A stretch of 64,000 nucleotides of DNA from Halarchaeum grantii (GTDB taxonomy: Archaea > Halobacteriota > Halobacteria > Halobacteriales > Halobacteriaceae). Where the stretch lies: NCBI RefSeq assembly GCF_014647455.2, contig NZ_BMPF01000003.1, positions 434,001 through 498,000 of the forward strand. The letters are read 5' to 3'. The position numbers and the translations under genes are program-made. Below are positions 39 through 60,340 of the stretch, piece by piece. The notes beneath the pieces were generated by a model, which saw only the letters and a program-made list of their open reading frames with translations, made no database searches and was not told the DNA's origin. Each line of letters starts with the position of its first letter. Position 1 is the first letter of the stretch.

Positions 39-55
39 AACACCACCGTGTCCGG
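39..55 (-). repeat. origin recognition box-like repeat A2
   Basis: On the minus strand it reads CCGGACACGGTGGTGTT, a good match to the core and tail of the set. It is inverted relative to the copy at 14-30. Confidence 0.5.
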
Positions 56-280
56 AGAAAAAGTCCGTTTCAGGCACTATATCACTCGATCTATCGAGTT
101 CGGGGCGTGGTGGTGGGGGGACACCGGTCCGTCCGGGATACCGCCGAGCCCTGAGCGCGGAAAGGGAGGAGGAGAGGAAACCGACGGAAGCGGTGGTCGA
201 GCGGGCGTCGGGACGAGAATCGGGACGTCGAGATACCGGCGGACAGCGCTGGTGGGGAGCCGGGACGCGCCCGACCGTGG

Positions 281-300
281 ACACACCACTATGTCCGCTG
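281..300 (-). repeat. origin recognition box-like repeat A3
   Basis: On the minus strand it reads CAGCGGACATAGTGGTGTGT, a full match to the core plus G-rich tail. It lies left of the AT-rich core in the same orientation as the copy at 341-365. Confidence 0.6.
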
Positions 301-340
301 TTCTGTGGAGTGGGCGGAATGCGACGGCCACCGGGGGGGG

Positions 341-365
341 ACACTCACCCCACTTTGTCCGCAGT
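341..365 (-). repeat. origin recognition box-like repeat A4
   Basis: The minus strand holds ACTGCGGACAAAGTGGGGTG, taken here as the best copy. It shares the 14-base run ACTGCGGACAAAGTGG with the inverted copy at 610-636. The two flank the AT-rich core symmetrically. Confidence 0.7.
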
Positions 366-469
366 AACGACGGGAGAAGACCGGGTGGGGGAACGGGATG
401 CGGCAATACGTGCCGCCGCGGTTCGGGAAGGATTGAAGCAACAGAGAAGAGAGAAGAAGACAAGGAGAA

Positions 470-575: not shown

Positions 576-609
576 CCTCTCTTCCACCCCCTCCCTCCCT
601 TTCGCCAGT

Positions 610-636
610 ACTGCGGACAAAGTGGAGGGGGTGTGT
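610..636 (+). repeat. origin recognition box-like repeat A5
   Basis: Reads ACTGCGGACAAAGTGGAG followed by a G run and GTGTGT. It is the mirror partner of the copy at 341-365 across the AT-rich core. Confidence 0.7.
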
Positions 637-689: not shown

Positions 690-727
690 GGACGCTCCGG
701 ACACTCCGGACACTCCGGACGCGGTGG
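690..727 (+). repeat. tandem 9-base repeats running into a half recognition box
   Basis: Three units GGACGCTCC, GGACACTCC and GGACACTCC follow each other without gaps and run into GGACGCGGTGG, a half copy of the origin A repeat. The array ends two bases before the TATA-like box of the cdc6 gene, so initiator binding could control that promoter. Confidence 0.55.
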
Positions 728-728
728 C

Positions 729-735
729 TTTATTG
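729..735 (+). promoter_or_regulatory. TATA-like box of cdc6 gene 1
   Basis: TTTATTG is centred 28 bases before the ATG at 760. This spacing fits a leaderless transcript starting at or near that ATG and supports that start over the in-frame GTG at 724. Confidence 0.6.
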
Positions 736-759: not shown

Positions 760-2079
760 ATGGGGCTCTTCGAGCGGGACACCGACATCTATCGGGACCG
801 CGACGCACTCCGGGAGGACTACCAGCCAGCCGAACTCGTCGGGCGGGACGAGGAACTCTCAACCTACACGTCCGCCCTCCAGCCGGTCATCAACGGCGAA
901 CAGCCGAACAACGTCTTCCTCTACGGGAAGACGGGCGTCGGGAAGACTGCGGCGACGCGCTACCTCCTCGACCACCTCCGCGAGGACGCCGACGAGTACG
1001 ACGACATCGCCCTCGACATCATCTTCCTCAACTGCGACGGCCTCTCCTCCTCCTACCAGGTCGCCACCCACCTCGTGAACGAACTGCGCGCCGAGCACAA
1101 CCAGATCAGTACGACGGGCTACCCGCTCGCGACGGTCTACGAGATGCTCTGGGAGGACCTCGACTCGCACGGCGGCACGGTCCTCATCGTCCTCGACGAG
1201 ATCGACAACATCGGCGACGACTCCATCCTCTATCAACTCCCGCGCGCTCGCGCGAACGGCAAACTCGAGGACACCCAAGTGGGCCTCATCGGCATCTCGA
1301 ACGACTTCTCCTTCCGCGACGACCTCTCGCCGAAGGTGAAGTCCTCGCTCTGCGAGAACGAGATCCACTTCCCCGCGTACGACGCCACCGACCTGAAGGC
1401 CATCCTGAAACAGCGCGCGGACGTCGCGTTTCACGACGGCGTCCTCGACGACGGCGTTATCCCGCTCTGTGCGGCCTACGGCGCGAAGGACGCCGGTGAC
1501 GCCCGCCAATCCATCGACCTCCTGATGAAGGCGGGCGACGTCGCGCGCGACGACGAGGCCACCACCGTCACCGAGGACCACGTCGACCGTGGGCGCACCG
1601 CGCTCGAACGCGGCCGCATCGAGGAGGGCATTCGAGGGCTCACCGAGCACGGCCACCTCGTGCTCTACGCGCTCGTGACGAACGACCTCGAGGGCGAGAC
1701 GCCGATCCGCTCGCGCGACGTCCGCCCGCGCTACACGCGCTTCGCCGAACTCGCGAACCGCGACCCGCTCGTCCCCCGCCGTATGCGCGATCACCTGAGC
1801 GAGCTCGCGATGCTCGGCATCATCTCGGTCACGGAGCGCAACGAGGGGCGACGCGGCGGCACCTACCGCGAGTACGAACTCGACATGCCGGTCCAGCAGG
1901 TCCTGAGCGCGCTCTCGGAGACCGTCGAACTCGTCGGCGTTCACGAGTCGGTCGTCGAACTCGCGACGGACGTGATGCCGGACGTCGCGGCGGCGGCCGC
2001 CGCGAGCGCGGAGGCGGACGGCGAGGGTGAGGACGCGGACGACGACCACGAGGACGCCTCCCTCGCCTCCTTCGAGTAG
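760..2079 (+). CDS. cdc6: Orc1/Cdc6 family replication initiator 1
   Basis: An AAA+ ATPase that recognises origin repeats and starts replication. The 439-residue protein has Walker A GKTGVGKT at about 56-63, Walker B VLDEID at about 144-149, a sensor 1 region near 175-183 (GLIGISN), a sensor 2 arginine in GDAR near 249, and a C-terminal winged-helix region from about 300. The tail after residue 410 is alanine- and acid-rich and probably disordered. The ATG at 760 is chosen because a TATA-like box lies 28 bases upstream. Repeats lie on both sides of the gene. Its family role is secure. That it acts on these particular repeats is inferred from position. Confidence 0.93.
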   Translation: MGLFERDTDIYRDRDALREDYQPAELVGRDEELSTYTSALQPVINGEQPNNVFLYGKTGVGKTAATRYLLDHLREDADEYDDIALDIIFLNCDGLSSSYQVATHLVNELRAEHNQISTTGYPLATVYEMLWEDLDSHGGTVLIVLDEIDNIGDDSILYQLPRARANGKLEDTQVGLIGISNDFSFRDDLSPKVKSSLCENEIHFPAYDATDLKAILKQRADVAFHDGVLDDGVIPLCAAYGAKDAGDARQSIDLLMKAGDVARDDEATTVTEDHVDRGRTALERGRIEEGIRGLTEHGHLVLYALVTNDLEGETPIRSRDVRPRYTRFAELANRDPLVPRRMRDHLSELAMLGIISVTERNEGRRGGTYREYELDMPVQQVLSALSETVELVGVHESVVELATDVMPDVAAAAAASAEADGEGEDADDDHEDASLASFE

Positions 2080-2097
2080 CGCGTCCGAGCGAACCCG

Positions 2098-2120
2098 ATT
2101 ACTGCGGACGCGGTGGGGTA
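2098..2120 (+). repeat. origin recognition box-like repeat A6
   Basis: Contains ACTGCGGACGCGGTGGGGT, just downstream of cdc6 gene 1 in the same orientation as the copy at 610-636. Confidence 0.62.
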
Positions 2121-2227
2121 TACGGAACCCTTATCTGTCTGTATGGAAGTCCGAGGGCGGACCAGCGGCTGACACCCGCACATTGAACACCGGAAAACCC
2201 GCTGAGAGCCGCGTCTCAACCGTCGAT

Positions 2228-2250
2228 ACAGCGGACGAGGTGGTGTTCGG
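2228..2250 (+). repeat. origin recognition box-like repeat A7
   Basis: Contains ACAGCGGACGAGGTGGTGTT. The 2080-2305 gap between cdc6 and the next gene holds only this copy, the copy at 2098-2120 and no plausible ORF. Confidence 0.62.
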
Positions 2251-27218: not shown

Positions 27219-27821
27219 ATGGACCTCTACGACACCTACATCGGGAACACCGCGGACGAGGCGGTGGCATCGCGCGTCGAGCGCGCGGCGACGCGGGAGC
27301 TGACGCTCGACGAGACGACGCGGCGGCGCTCGCGCTTCCGGACTGAGACCGAGGACGGGACGGACGTCGGCGTCGTGACCGGGAAGGCCGGGAGCCTCGA
27401 ACCGGGGGACGTCCTCGCGAGCGACGACGCGGCGGCCCTGCTGGTCGTCGGTCTCGCGGCGCGCGACGCGCTCGTCGTGGACCTGCACGAGGCGGACGCG
27501 ACGCCGGAGGCGATGGCGCTCGCGGCGAAACTCGGGCACGTCGTCGGGAACCGCCACCGCGACCTCGCGGTGCGGGGCGCGTCGGTCCTCGTCGCCCTGG
27601 ACGAGTCGGTCGAGCGCCACCGCGAGGAGGTCGCAGCACACCTCCCGGACGGCGCGACGACGCGCGTCGAAGCCGTCGACCCGATGCGCTTCGACGACGG
27701 AACGCCCGACCACGCCCACGGCGACGACCACGTGCACGAACACGGCGACACCCACGAACACGACCACGGAAACGCGACGGGCGTCCGAGCGCCGAACCCG
27801 GACGGGGGCGAGTCGAAGTGA
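27219..27821 (+). CDS. ureE: urease nickel-binding chaperone
   Basis: A 200-residue chaperone that supplies nickel. After the N-terminal domain and the nickel-binding His107 region (KLGHVVGNRH), residues 165-183 are a His/Asp/Glu-rich tail with eight histidines, as in many nickel-storing UreE proteins. It overlaps ureF by four bases. Confidence 0.9.
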   Translation: MDLYDTYIGNTADEAVASRVERAATRELTLDETTRRRSRFRTETEDGTDVGVVTGKAGSLEPGDVLASDDAAALLVVGLAARDALVVDLHEADATPEAMALAAKLGHVVGNRHRDLAVRGASVLVALDESVERHREEVAAHLPDGATTRVEAVDPMRFDDGTPDHAHGDDHVHEHGDTHEHDHGNATGVRAPNPDGGESK

Positions 27822-46588: not shown

Positions 46589-47275
46589 ATGCTTCCCGAC
46601 CTCCTCGATGGTCTCGTCGCCGACCCGTTCGCGGTGCTGAACGCGGTCGGTCTCGTCGCGTTCGCGCTCGTCGGCGCGACGAAGGCGATCCGCGAGGAGT
46701 TCGACCTCTTCGGCGTGACCGTCGTCGGCCTCGGGACGGCGTTCGCAGGCGGCGCGACCCGCGACATCCTCGTCGGCCGCGTCCCGCTCGCGCTCCAGTC
46801 CTTCGGCGAAATCTCGCTGGGCCTGCTCGGCGTCGCGCTCGCCATCGCGCTCAGCGTCACCTTCGACGACGCCGACGAGCACCCGGTGGCGGTCGCCTCC
46901 GACGCCGCCGGTCTCGCGGCGTTCGCGACTGCGGGCGCCATCGTCGCCACCGACGTCGGCGTCTCCGGCTTCGGCGTCGTCGCCATCGCCGTCATCAACG
47001 CCTGCGGGGGCGGCGCGTTCGCGGACATCCTCCTCGACCGCTCGCCGTTCATCCTCGTCGAGGACTTCTACGCGAGCTGTACGGTCCTCGGCGGCCTCAC
47101 CTACTGGCTCGTCGACGTCGGCGCGTTCGCCGGCGTCGTCGGGAGCGCGGCGGGCACCGCCGCCGCGTGCTGTGCCGCCGTCACCATCGGCGCGCGCTTC
47201 GTCGGCGTCTACTTCGGCTGGCGCCTCCCGACCGCGCAGTCGCTCGCCGTCCACACGAGTCGCGGCGAGCGCTGA
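46589..47275 (+). CDS. TRIC/UPF0126 (YicG-like) membrane channel protein
   Basis: A 228-residue membrane protein with two repeats of three helices plus one, the plan of prokaryotic TRIC cation channels. The glycine motifs are FAGGATRDILVGR in repeat 1 and NACGGGAFADILLDR in repeat 2. Its physiological substrate is unknown. Confidence 0.83.
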   Translation: MLPDLLDGLVADPFAVLNAVGLVAFALVGATKAIREEFDLFGVTVVGLGTAFAGGATRDILVGRVPLALQSFGEISLGLLGVALAIALSVTFDDADEHPVAVASDAAGLAAFATAGAIVATDVGVSGFGVVAIAVINACGGGAFADILLDRSPFILVEDFYASCTVLGGLTYWLVDVGAFAGVVGSAAGTAAACCAAVTIGARFVGVYFGWRLPTAQSLAVHTSRGER

Positions 47276-47278
47276 CGC

Positions 47279-47308
47279 CGCGAACAACAGCGGACACGGT
47301 GGTGTGGT
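47279..47308 (+). repeat. isolated origin A-type repeat, left copy
   Basis: Contains ACAGCGGACACGGTGGTGTG, a match to the boxes around cdc6 gene 1 some 45 kb away. It matches the copy at 49046-49075 in 25 of 30 positions and lies just beyond the 3' end of the Bat-type regulator gene. Confidence 0.5.
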
Positions 47309-47343
47309 GTGGCACGCGACCGCCCGCGATCGTCACGGCGGGC

Positions 47344-48972
47344 CTACGCGTCGTCGAGGAGGCGACCGAAGACCTTCCGCTGGACGGCCCGGAGGTGCTG
47401 TGAGAACGTCGGCGGCGAGACGCCGAGCGCCTCCGCGACCGCCGACCCGCTCGTCTCGCGCGGCCACTCGAAATAGCCCATGAAGTACGCCGACTCGACG
47501 GCGGTGCGCTGGCGCTCCGTGAGCGCCTCCGACCAGACCGCGTGCAGGCGCTCCAGCGAGTCGTCGTGCGCGGGCACGCGACGCTGCGCGATGGGCTCCG
47601 CGTCGCCGTCGACCGCCCGAATCGTCTCGACGACGCGGCGTACCGCCGACTCCTCCGGGAGGTGGACGGTCATGTCGAGGTCGCGCCCGTCGACGACGAC
47701 CGACGCTATCGCGCCGCCCAGCGACGCCACCTCCGACATCACCGGCACGTCGCTCACGCGGAGTTCGAAGCGAACGCCGTCCGGTTGCTCGCTCACCACC
47801 GAGACCTCGTCCCACTCGTCGACGGCCGCCGTCATCGCGTCGACCGCCTCCACCGAGCGCTCGTCGGCGACGCCGTAGATGCGGAACGCGTCGTCGCGTA
47901 CCGGAATCGCGCGCTCGAGCGTGATCGTTCCGTCCGGGTCCTCCGCGTCGTCGAGCGAGCGCACCGCGTCGTGCAGGCGGAACTCGAGCTCCACGACCGT
48001 CTCGCTCACGAGCGCGCGCTTGCGCTCCGCGGCCGCGATCGCGTGCCCGACGACGCGGCCGAGGCGGGCGACGATTCCGCGCTCCGCCGCCCCGAACGCG
48101 TCCTCGCGGTCCGCGTAGACCACGAGAACGCCGTACGTCGTCTCCCCGTTGACGACCGGAATCGCGGCCGCCTCCGCCGCCGATGCGACGGCCTCCGCCT
48201 CCGCGAGCGCGTGCTCCCGGGTCGTCCGTATCTCGCCCGCCTCGAGCGCGCGCCCGCTCAGCGAGTCGGCCCCGTCCGACGCCCCCGAGAGCGCGACGGC
48301 GTCGGGCGTCGCGTCCCCGCCCGCGTCCGCACGCACCGACACCGTCTCCGAGCGCGGTTCCGGCGCGCCCAGCCACGCGCACTCGTAGCACTCCGAGGCG
48401 GCGAGGCGCTCGCAGGCCGCGCGCTCGACCTCCCGACGGGTCGCGCGCTCGATGACGGCCGCCGTCACCTCGTGCACCGCGTCGTGGAACCGGTTCACGT
48501 CGCCGTCACGCGGTCGACTCCGCTGCGACTCGTCGTCCGACGCCCCCGCCCGCTCGTCGCCGTCGTCGGGGACCTCGGCGACGACGACGCCCGCACCGTC
48601 CGCCGCCACCGGCGTGACGCGCAGCGTTCGCGCGACTCGCGTCCCCGCCGCGTCTCGCACCGTCGCGTCGAGGGTGCGGGTGGCATCCCGGTTGGTGACG
48701 CGGGCGTCGGCCGCCGCGTCGAGGTGGTCGCGAACGCGCGCGGCGTCGCGCTCGCCGAGCAGCGTCGCGAGCGACGACCCGGCGAGGGCGCCCGCCTCGT
48801 AGCCCAGTCGCTCGCGGGCGACGTCGTTCACCGCGAGCACCGCCCCCGACGCGTCGACGTGGTAGACGCCGTCGTCGAACAGCGCCGAGAGCGCACGCGC
48901 GCGGCCGTCCAGCACGTCGCGGTCCGCCGGCGCCCGAAACCGCGTGCCGGCGCCGTCTCCGTCTTCGGTCAT
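47344..48972 (-). CDS. Bat-type transcription regulator (PAS, GAF, HTH-10)
   Basis: A 542-residue haloarchaeal regulator. A PAS domain lies near 25-135 (ALFDDGVYHVDASGAVLAVNDVARERLGY), a GAF domain near 165-315 and a Bat/HoxA-like region from 330. The C-terminal HTH-10 ends it (LTERQRTAVESAYFMGYFEWPRE). It could sense light, redox or oxygen like Bat. The GAF part has two cysteines (SECYECAW). A minus-strand TATA-like GATTTATTC about 29 bases before 48972 supports this start. Origin A-type repeats flank the gene. Confidence 0.86.
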   Translation of the reverse strand: MTEDGDGAGTRFRAPADRDVLDGRARALSALFDDGVYHVDASGAVLAVNDVARERLGYEAGALAGSSLATLLGERDAARVRDHLDAAADARVTNRDATRTLDATVRDAAGTRVARTLRVTPVAADGAGVVVAEVPDDGDERAGASDDESQRSRPRDGDVNRFHDAVHEVTAAVIERATRREVERAACERLAASECYECAWLGAPEPRSETVSVRADAGGDATPDAVALSGASDGADSLSGRALEAGEIRTTREHALAEAEAVASAAEAAAIPVVNGETTYGVLVVYADREDAFGAAERGIVARLGRVVGHAIAAAERKRALVSETVVELEFRLHDAVRSLDDAEDPDGTITLERAIPVRDDAFRIYGVADERSVEAVDAMTAAVDEWDEVSVVSEQPDGVRFELRVSDVPVMSEVASLGGAIASVVVDGRDLDMTVHLPEESAVRRVVETIRAVDGDAEPIAQRRVPAHDDSLERLHAVWSEALTERQRTAVESAYFMGYFEWPRETSGSAVAEALGVSPPTFSQHLRAVQRKVFGRLLDDA

Positions 48973-49045
48973 CGAGTAGTGGATTCGGGTGGCCGCGAAT
49001 AAATCCCCCGTCGGCGTCACCGCGTCCCGCGCGCCGCGTGCGACG

Positions 49046-49075
49046 CGCGAACAACGGCGGATACGGCGGTGTCGG
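49046..49075 (+). repeat. isolated origin A-type repeat, right copy
   Basis: Contains ACGGCGGATACGGCGGTGTC, a diverged copy of the origin A box. It is a direct repeat of 47279-47308, on the other side of the Bat-type regulator gene. Confidence 0.45.
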
Positions 49076-59125: not shown

Positions 59126-60340
59126 ATGCCCGACACCGACGACCTCTTCATTCGCGAGGACCCCGTCTTCACTAACAAGGAGCTCCTCGAAATCAACCAC
59201 CTCCCCGACGAGGGGCGCATTGTCGGCCGCGACGAGGAAATCCGCCAGCTCGCCAATGCCGTCAATCCCGCCATTTTCGGTCAGAGCCCGAGCAACATTC
59301 TCATCTACGGCAAGACGGGCACCGGGAAGTCGCTCTGCGCCAAACACGTCTCACAGCGCCTCGTCGAAACGGCCGGTGAGGAAGACATCGACGCCGTCTA
59401 CGCCTATGTTGACTGCGCACAGGACTCCACGGAGACGCAGGCTGTCCAGACGCTCGCCAGCAGCGTCAACGACCGCGCGCGCACCGACGCGAAGATTCCC
59501 GACAAGGGCATCAGCACCGCGACGTACTACAAGCGCCTCTGGCGCATTCTCGACGCCCGCCACGACATCGTCCTCGTCATCCTCGACGAGATCGACAAAC
59601 TCGAGGACGACGACATCCTCATGCAGCTCTCGCGCGCCGGTGAAGCCGGGAAGATCACCGACTGCAAGGTCGGCGTCATCGGCATCAGCAACAAGATCAA
59701 GTACAAGGACCGGATGGATGAACGCGTCAAATCGAGCCTCTGCGAGCGCGAGTTCGTCTTCCCGCCGTACGACGCCGACCAACTGAGCAGCATCATGCGC
59801 GCCCGCGCTGATGCGTTCCGTGACGGCGTCCTCGACGACGCCGTGATTCCGCGCGCCGCTGCCCTCGCTGCGCGCGAGCACGGCGACGCACGCAAGGCCA
59901 TCGACATCCTCCGGTACGCGGGCGAGATCGCTCAGTCGAGCGGCTCCGAGGCCGTCGAGGAGCGCTTCGTCGTCGACGCCCGCGAGCGTGCCGAAACCGA
60001 CCGGTTCCGCGAGCTCATTCGCGGGTCGACGCCGCACTCCCGCTACGTCCTCCACGCCCTCGTCGTGCTCGCGCTCGACGACGACACCGACGACGACGGC
60101 TTTCGCACGACGCGGATCTACGACGTCTATGAGCAAATCTGCCGGCAGGAGGGCCTCGACGCCCTCTCGCTTCGTCGCGTGCGCGACCTCCTGAAGGAGC
60201 ACGCGTTCCTCGATATCGTCGAGCAGTCCCGACACAGCGGCGGGAGCGCCGAAGGCACCTACACGAACCACACGCTCCTCGAGGACCCGACCGTCATCCG
60301 CGAAGTACTCACGGAGACTGCCACCCCCAAGGGCGCGTAG
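59126..60340 (+). CDS. cdc6: Orc1/Cdc6 family replication initiator 2 (oriC1 type)
   Basis: A 404-residue AAA+ initiator. The N-terminus MPDTDDLFIREDPVFTNKEL resembles the oriC1-linked Orc1 of many haloarchaea. Walker A GKTGTGKS is at 62-69, Walker B LVILDEID near 150-157 and sensor 1 VIGISN near 184-189. A winged helix follows from about 300. The ATG at 59126 is chosen because the TATA-like box lies 27 bases upstream and a longer start would translate the recognition box. The protein is clearly different from the initiator at 760, although the domain order is the same. Confidence 0.94.
   Translation: MPDTDDLFIREDPVFTNKELLEINHLPDEGRIVGRDEEIRQLANAVNPAIFGQSPSNILIYGKTGTGKSLCAKHVSQRLVETAGEEDIDAVYAYVDCAQDSTETQAVQTLASSVNDRARTDAKIPDKGISTATYYKRLWRILDARHDIVLVILDEIDKLEDDDILMQLSRAGEAGKITDCKVGVIGISNKIKYKDRMDERVKSSLCEREFVFPPYDADQLSSIMRARADAFRDGVLDDAVIPRAAALAAREHGDARKAIDILRYAGEIAQSSGSEAVEERFVVDARERAETDRFRELIRGSTPHSRYVLHALVVLALDDDTDDDGFRTTRIYDVYEQICRQEGLDALSLRRVRDLLKEHAFLDIVEQSRHSGGSAEGTYTNHTLLEDPTVIREVLTETATPKGA

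Follow-up and report, generated by a model that had tools for sequence, protein, structure and literature searches.

Candidate Cdc6 sites dispersed along a Halarchaeum megaplasmid far from its cdc6-type origin

The regulator locus, its paired repeats and the origin

The analyzed stretch of Halarchaeum grantii DNA (64,000 nucleotides, hereafter the window) contains a cdc6-type origin at positions 1-2300 and, 45 kb away, a gene for a Bat-type regulator that is convergent with a TRIC gene and flanked by two 30-nt repeats at 47279-47308 and 49046-49075 (table 1). A first-pass annotation of the sequence had proposed such repeats on either side of the regulator gene, and the distance from the origin, the type of the regulator and the repeats themselves are all borne out: the regulator contains the BAT domain and the HTH_10 that define the Bat type (PF15915 at 1.7e-29, PF04967 at 4.4e-20), and the repeats share their orientation and 25 out of 30 positions. 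The window Cdc6 is 95-96% identical to that of three Halarchaeum genomes and 99.3% identical to that of Halarchaeum sp. CBA1220, the closest named relative, where the locus lies on a closed plasmid of 602,938 bp (NZ_CP054708.1) and not on the main chromosome. The origin and the regulator region of this 603-kb megaplasmid are 92.7% and 94.8% identical to the window, and by this homology the locus is shown to sit on a megaplasmid that would replicate from the cdc6 origin.

The likeness of the repeats exceeds simulated chance. In 100 first-order Markov simulations of 64 kb, matches to the first 30-mer reached at most 22 out of 30 positions, and the similarity of the observed repeats extends over ~50 nt with small gaps (local score 44; mean 26.1, sd 5.1 and maximum 43 in 200 simulations). 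The pattern is also not common at chance level, which would have spoken against the annotation: a 26-mer at up to three mismatches has two occurrences in the 3.02-Mb genome, both of them the repeats, and the 16-mer core at up to two mismatches has 54 matches genome-wide versus seven for the reversed pattern.

Both repeats contain, as had been proposed, the ORB core found at the window's cdc6 origin. A 22-bp ORB motif, [AG][TG][TA]AC[TA]GCGGAC[AG]N[GA]GTGG[TG]GT, and the corresponding PWM were derived from 56 sites (up to two mismatches) around the cdc6 of the window origin in seven genomes, and these training sites score 17.0-37.6 bits. The end of the motif, GTGG[TG]GT, is G-rich without a long G run; one study describes haloarchaeal ORBs with a long terminal G-stretch, or “G-string” (PMC3528665). 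The repeats had been described as diverged boxes, which applies to ORB2 and not to ORB1. ORB1 lies inside the score range of the origin ORBs and is therefore a full ORB that matches the motif of its cognate cdc6-adjacent origin; in a second, sequence-only model (R1, trained on 49 of the 56) it scores 22.9 bits and ranks third in the genome among the best 150 candidates. ORB2 of this strain does not match the motif at that level, as it scores lower than every one of the 56 origin ORBs and has a T at a position where 56/56 carry a C. Sites of at least 15 bits occur twice in 3 Mb of simulated sequence and sites of at least 20 bits do not occur. ORB2 alone is unremarkable by score; it is notable for resembling ORB1 beyond the motif and has the appearance of a duplicate that has decayed.

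Table 1. Genes, ORBs and ORB-like matches in the window and in the sequences compared with it
Sequence	Feature	Position	Strand	Score (bits)	Remarks
Window	Origin ORB	40..61	-	29.2	
Window	Origin ORB	283..304	-	32.6	
Window	Origin ORB	347..368	-	34.8	
Window	Origin ORB	607..628	+	29.4	
Window	Weak ORB	709..730	+	16.4	Immediately before cdc6 start
Window	orc1/cdc6 initiator gene	760..2079	+		Cdc6_lid, Cdc6_C, AAA domains (Pfam)
Window	ORB 3' of cdc6	2098..2119	+	33.5	
Window	ORB 3' of cdc6	2225..2246	+	30.2	
Window	TRIC cation channel / Gly_transporter family gene	46643..47275	+		Precedes ORB1; PF03458; TRIC cation channel in CBA1220 annotation
Window	ORB1, extra-origin ORB	47284..47305	+	30.4 (origin PWM)	8 nt after TRIC stop codon
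Window	Bat-type regulator gene, 542 aa	47344..48972	-		PAS-GAF-BAT-HTH_10 (Pfam)
Window	ORB2, degenerate ORB copy	49051..49072	+	15.4	79-100 nt upstream of regulator start
Window	Hypothetical protein gene, 125 aa	49164..49541	+		Right of ORB2; no Pfam match; hypothetical in CBA1220 annotation
CBA1220 plasmid	Origin cluster	596178-598435			8 matches
CBA1220 plasmid	Dispersed locus	105021			One site, intergenic; 111 kb from origin
CBA1220 plasmid	Dispersed locus	246725-246746			One site; ends 1 nt before response-regulator gene; 252 kb from origin
CBA1220 plasmid	Dispersed locus	290351 + 290374			Pair 290351-290395, nearly fills 53-nt gap of convergent genes; 296 kb from origin
CBA1220 plasmid	Dispersed locus	545081 + 546848			Counterparts of ORB2 and ORB1, respectively; ~51 kb from origin
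CBA1220 plasmid	GCGGAAGC type matches	473519, 473591			As beside another cdc6 of H. grantii
CBA1220 plasmid	Match in ureE			21.3	Coding
CBA1220 plasmid	Three weak matches			15.4-18.3	
pSVX82-2	Extra-origin ORB	4684		33.2	Intergenic
pSVX82-2	Extra-origin ORB	228700		33.1	Intergenic, 55 kb away
pSVX82-2	Extra-origin ORB	279712		35.6	Intergenic
L034	In-frame ORB	2068-2086			
L035	In-frame ORB	2010-2028			
L036	In-frame ORB	2008-2026			
L037	In-frame ORB	2040-2058			
L111, L112, L113, L118, L174	In-frame ORB				

A second origin at ORB1 or ORB2 was considered and rejected. A cdc6-type origin is marked by a neighboring cdc6 gene and by oppositely oriented ORBs that bracket an AT-rich stretch, and these features are not found there: the ORB1 gap (~70 nt) has 28% A+T, the ORB2 gap 29%, and no cdc6 adjoins either. 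More generally, conserved ORBs far from the origin are a caution against reading a lone ORB as the sign of one. The window contains a second orc1/cdc6 gene (59144-60322, 40% identical to the first), beside which the PWM found no ORB of the studied type of at least 8 bits, and the genome as a whole holds 12 Cdc6 matches at E <= 1e-60. A 19-mer, TATGCGGACACGGTGGGGT, is present in all four Halarchaeum genomes (G000:C9:16709, G001:C153:16075, G002:C9:72077, G003:C6:29359) and lies within ~1 kb of another cdc6 gene in H. grantii (G000) and H. nitratireducens (G002); it may represent a related ORB type, with possible cross-recognition among Cdc6 proteins.

ORBs away from the origin and their conservation

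The whole CBA1220 plasmid was scanned with the origin PWM at a cut-off of at least 14 bits, which gave 20 matches, and none in the reversed plasmid. Outside the origin cluster, six sites at four dispersed loci all lie between annotated genes (table 1). The counterpart of ORB1 is identical at 22 out of 22 positions and that of ORB2 at 21 out of 22, the one difference being the canonical C at the invariant position, which gives it 21.7 bits. The match in ureE has a counterpart in the window (27246-27267, 16.1 bits), and this ORB-like site is probably a coding coincidence. All four dispersed loci have counterparts in H. grantii, where the 22-mers are identical at three sites and differ by one to three bases at the others. 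Non-origin ORBs with at most one mismatch, outside coding repeats, were found in H. grantii at C3:162990/163013, 204689, 342214 and 481287 (ORB1), with one more on contig C2.

Three of the four dispersed loci have positional counterparts in three other species of Halarchaeum despite diverged noncoding flanks. H. acidiphilum (G001), H. nitratireducens (G002) and H. rubridurum (G003) each carry a single, identically oriented ORB ~100 nt past TRIC, so that with H. grantii all four genomes carry an ORB behind this gene. Among 22 TRIC loci of named genomes it is present at 3/3 in Halarchaeum and 0/19 in other genera, where the top score within 400 nt was 4.4 bits. The ORBs behind the response-regulator gene and behind dsbB are each present in all four genomes as well. 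The dsbB ORBs are exactly 23 bp apart and fill the convergent gap in H. grantii (L149:2788-2832), H. nitratireducens, H. rubridurum and CBA1220, and H. acidiphilum has a single one; a similar spacing, 24 bp, is seen in an ORB pair at the origin of another genome (G008). Mean pairwise identity of the 22-mer at the TRIC, response-regulator and dsbB loci is 0.77, 0.91 and 0.81 versus 0.29-0.52 for the 30-nt flanks, the 3' flank of dsbB including the second ORB. Such conservation is the principal evidence for selection on the extra-origin ORBs. A fixed polarity of the ORBs toward the origin was rejected, as their orientation tracks the neighboring gene.

In a second family, the Haloferax lucentense plasmid pSVX82-2 (NZ_CP104743.1, 285,035 bp) encodes a Cdc6 that is 80% identical, and it was scanned whole with the same PWM, whose training set contained no Haloferax sequence. 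It has 16 sites of at least 14 bits, compared with none in the reversed plasmid; 13 lie no more than 2 kb from the origin, and the gap that separates cdc6 from the following gene holds six of the 13. The remaining three are intergenic (table 1). In H. gibbonsii pHG2, the region corresponding to site 228700 is rearranged and no ORB was found behind the same MATE gene.

The motif also follows the initiator from genome to genome. Model R1 was run on 12 genomes, with the best 150 candidates retained in each (down to ~12 bits); strong matches were numerous in the seven genomes whose Cdc6 is at least 84% identical, and the five genomes without this cdc6 gave three to six matches each, with a maximum of 17.4 bits among the candidates listed. 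A pattern search of 14 genomes, in which the presence of Cdc6 was called at E <= 1e-60 for G000-G012 with G013 outside that test, found 20-36 matches in the seven genomes with this Cdc6 versus 7-19 in the other seven, which lack a close copy, and one to six per genome for the reversed pattern. Within one genus, the genome with this Cdc6 (G004) has 28 matches and the genome without it (G010) has seven. That GC-rich halophile sequence produces such motifs by composition is very improbable as a general explanation, and chance is largely refuted for ORB1. The loose matches in genomes without a close cdc6 copy and the weak ones in coding sequence (~15-16 bits, the level of ORB2 alone) would fit it, but the absence of strong sites from simulated sequence, the blank scans of both reversed plasmids and the conservation of corresponding positions do not.

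The claim advanced here is that the ORBs are restricted to the replicon, rather than placed near its origin. Contig tests gave a combined P of about 2e-6, which is indicative only since related species were treated as independent; the counts exclude the in-frame perfect ORBs (on C4, C5, C7 and C8 and in G001 and G002) and those belonging to the cdc6 at C3:10034. Clustering near the origin was suggested by genome G009, whose cdc6 is on a 3.18-Mb contig with eight sites of at most one mismatch at a mean distance of 290 kb versus 793 kb expected (P 0.0007). This was weakened by the location of four of the eight sites in open frames and by the closed 603-kb plasmid, where sites reach 296 kb. By inspection, the G009 sites have no neighbor genes in common with the Halarchaeum sites, indicating site turnover.

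Possible roles of the dispersed ORBs

The dispersed ORBs, several of which lie directly behind stop codons in intergenic gaps, are most likely real Cdc6 sites that act as a replicon-specific initiator sink. On this explanation, which has about an even chance of being correct, ORB1 is a member of a limited group of ORBs, present singly or in pairs tens to hundreds of kilobases from the origin, that are bound by the Cdc6 of the replicon and titrate it, and ORB2 has decayed. Binding by this Cdc6 is suggested by the identity of the motif and by the way the motif tracks that cdc6 across genomes. Passage of the replication fork would copy the dispersed ORBs, the number of sites would rise and free Cdc6 would fall, and the lower level of free Cdc6 would delay re-initiation and hold the copy number. 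ORB2 would have arisen by duplication of ~50 nt around ORB1 and would mark the far end of a Bat-type regulator gene that had been acquired. Having decayed in this strain, it would add little binding, and titration would stand without it.

An initiator reservoir was one of three readings offered by the first-pass annotation and is the best supported of them: ORB1 belongs to a conserved set of extra-origin ORBs on a replicon with this cdc6, from which a role as a sink may follow. As in a titrating locus, the replicon has initiator sites, by motif, beyond its minimal origin; a dense cluster of them is not present. The capacity of the sink may be small, since no extra-origin locus has more than two sites, whereas the origin has more and a known titrating cluster far more (11 ORBs). 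The turnover of sites in G009 and at the Haloferax MATE gene speaks against titration as well, as do the distance of ORB1 from TRIC in CBA1220 (4.2 kb, TRIC having no ORB of its own) and the coding location of some matches, such as that in ureE.

The second reading of the annotation, Cdc6 as a transcription factor for the regulator, fares poorly. In its fuller form, Cdc6 would act as a roadblock behind TRIC and at an operator before the regulator gene, coupling the regulator to the replication state, and this appears unlikely. The positions of ORB2 upstream of the regulator start and of ORB1 behind its 3' end agree with such a role, as do the retention of both ORBs in CBA1220 (where the regulator is present, with 1554/1629 nt identical, and ORB2 is stronger) and the location of several extra-origin ORBs directly after stop codons in the sense of the gene. 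However, the only ORB upstream of the regulator is the degenerate ORB2, which lacks an invariant base in this strain, and ORB1 lies between convergent gene ends. The conserved ORBs adjoin unrelated genes (TRIC, response regulator, dsbB), mostly at 3' ends and not at promoters, and they are retained in species without this regulator: H. acidiphilum, H. nitratireducens and H. rubridurum have no close ortholog (best matches 35-36%). A scan of genome contigs with the regulator as query found no relative. The closest homologs (45-47% identity) occur in other genera (G009 and G018), and the 16 kb around them (L109, L110) contain no ORB of at least 13 bits; ORBs as a trait of Bat-type regulators were rejected on this result. 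Control of the regulator through the ORBs is a candidate function that stands unproven.

The third reading, a cassette scar, is upheld in part. It would have the regulator cassette enter at the ORB behind TRIC and leave an ORB copy at each end, of which the older alone works, a course of events of low probability. The regulator is missing from all three other Halarchaeum genomes, each of which retains one ORB behind TRIC; the likeness of the two ends over ~50 nt is above chance, and the weaker copy is ORB2. Against this, the sequence to the right of ORB2 (the 125-aa gene and siderophore genes) differs from the sequence after the ORB in G001-G003, so there is no clean empty site and a cassette insertion is possible rather than demonstrated. 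Identical short target duplications, which would mark a transposon or cassette together with a clean empty site, are likewise not seen: the copies differ at five of 30 positions and are not a fresh duplication. The CBA1220 annotation shows no recombinase at the ends, and a scar accounts for the ORB pair and not for the conserved ORB1. On the TRIC side, the two strains differ in gene order. A 5'-nucleotidase domain protein gene and a hypothetical gene lie between TRIC and ORB1 in CBA1220 (546990-551045) and are absent from H. grantii, and the left edge of ORB1 is where the similarity between the two strains ends. Since TRIC adjoins an ORB in the sister species, the TRIC-ORB order is taken as the older one and the two CBA1220 genes as a probable insertion.

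It is quite unlikely that the dispersed ORBs are instead parS-like sites that serve to organize or partition the megaplasmid, with Cdc6 or some other protein as their binding partner. In favor of this is their spread over the whole replicon, which on the 603-kb circle takes them as far as 296 kb from the origin, in contrast to a titration cluster confined to one place; but the motif is the same as that of the origin ORBs and tracks the cdc6 gene, and no separate binding protein was identified.

The datA locus carries several DnaA boxes at one place, and the copy number of iteron plasmids is controlled by iterons, which are tandem repeats at the origin. Titration by the dispersed ORBs would resemble datA and DARS of E. 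coli in that initiator sites away from the origin could set the initiation frequency, and iteron plasmids in that the number of replicon-specific initiator sites limits the copy number. It would differ from datA, whose boxes lie together, in its lone ORBs and its Orc1/Cdc6 initiator, and from iterons in the dispersal of the sites. Two papers respectively treat datA as a DnaA-titrating locus of E. coli (PMC3936714) and describe the DARS loci and the action of datA with DnaA-ATP hydrolysis (PMC4585315). The nearest known system is oriC2D of Haloarcula hispanica, where, according to the first paper, 11 ORBs directly downstream of cdc6E exert negative control on oriC2, probably by titration of Cdc6E (PMC3936714); a review considers this downstream cluster design likely to be general in haloarchaea (PMC4010727). 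Both systems have Cdc6-type ORBs outside the minimal origin that are proposed as a sink for their own initiator, but oriC2D is a dense cluster beside cdc6E, whereas the ORBs described here are single or paired, ~50-300 kb away, at conserved corresponding loci and known from sequence alone. Up to now, ORB titration has been known from a cluster adjoining cdc6, and what is new is the dispersal of initiator sites along a megaplasmid. In the literature outside subscription journals, the available parts of the papers covered, including PMC3936714, PMC3528665, PMC4010727 and PMC12141716, contain no mention of dispersed ORBs, and a search under Halarchaeum found nothing.

How archaea with many Cdc6/origin pairs keep the copy number of each replicon is an open question that these sites address. 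The conserved far-off ORBs provide exact, mutable sites at which archaeal initiator titration can be tested, including in the tractable Haloferax.

ORBs within plasmid ATPase genes

On other Halarchaeum contigs and on pCBA1220-02, a perfect 19-bp ORB also occurs in frame within a gene for an ATP-binding protein, next to a gene of the VirB4 family (table 1). These in-frame ORBs lie on H. grantii contigs C4, C5, C7 and C8 and in G001 and G002. Other plasmids may thus present ORBs to this Cdc6 or to another one. A cell-wide network, in which the replicon-wide ORBs and the perfect ORBs in conjugation-type ATPase genes of other Halarchaeum plasmids let the Cdc6 of one megaplasmid sense how many copies there are of its own replicon and of the others and coordinate their copy numbers, is distinctly improbable. 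The crtS site of Vibrio cholerae, which lies on one chromosome and controls the other, would be a possible parallel for ORBs inside plasmid genes, although cross-replicon control is without evidence here.

The in-frame ORBs were at first set aside as a coding coincidence, which was then withdrawn on the basis of constraint at the codon level. Codons of invariant residues are identical across eight copies at 5/5 positions inside the motif versus 6/24 outside (Fisher about 0.004), the eight Halarchaeum copies having been found through the motif, so that copies without it could be missed. Including CBA1220, 9/9 Halarchaeum copies carry the in-frame ORB and 0/9 homologs of other genera do, the latter hand-picked from 143 matching records.
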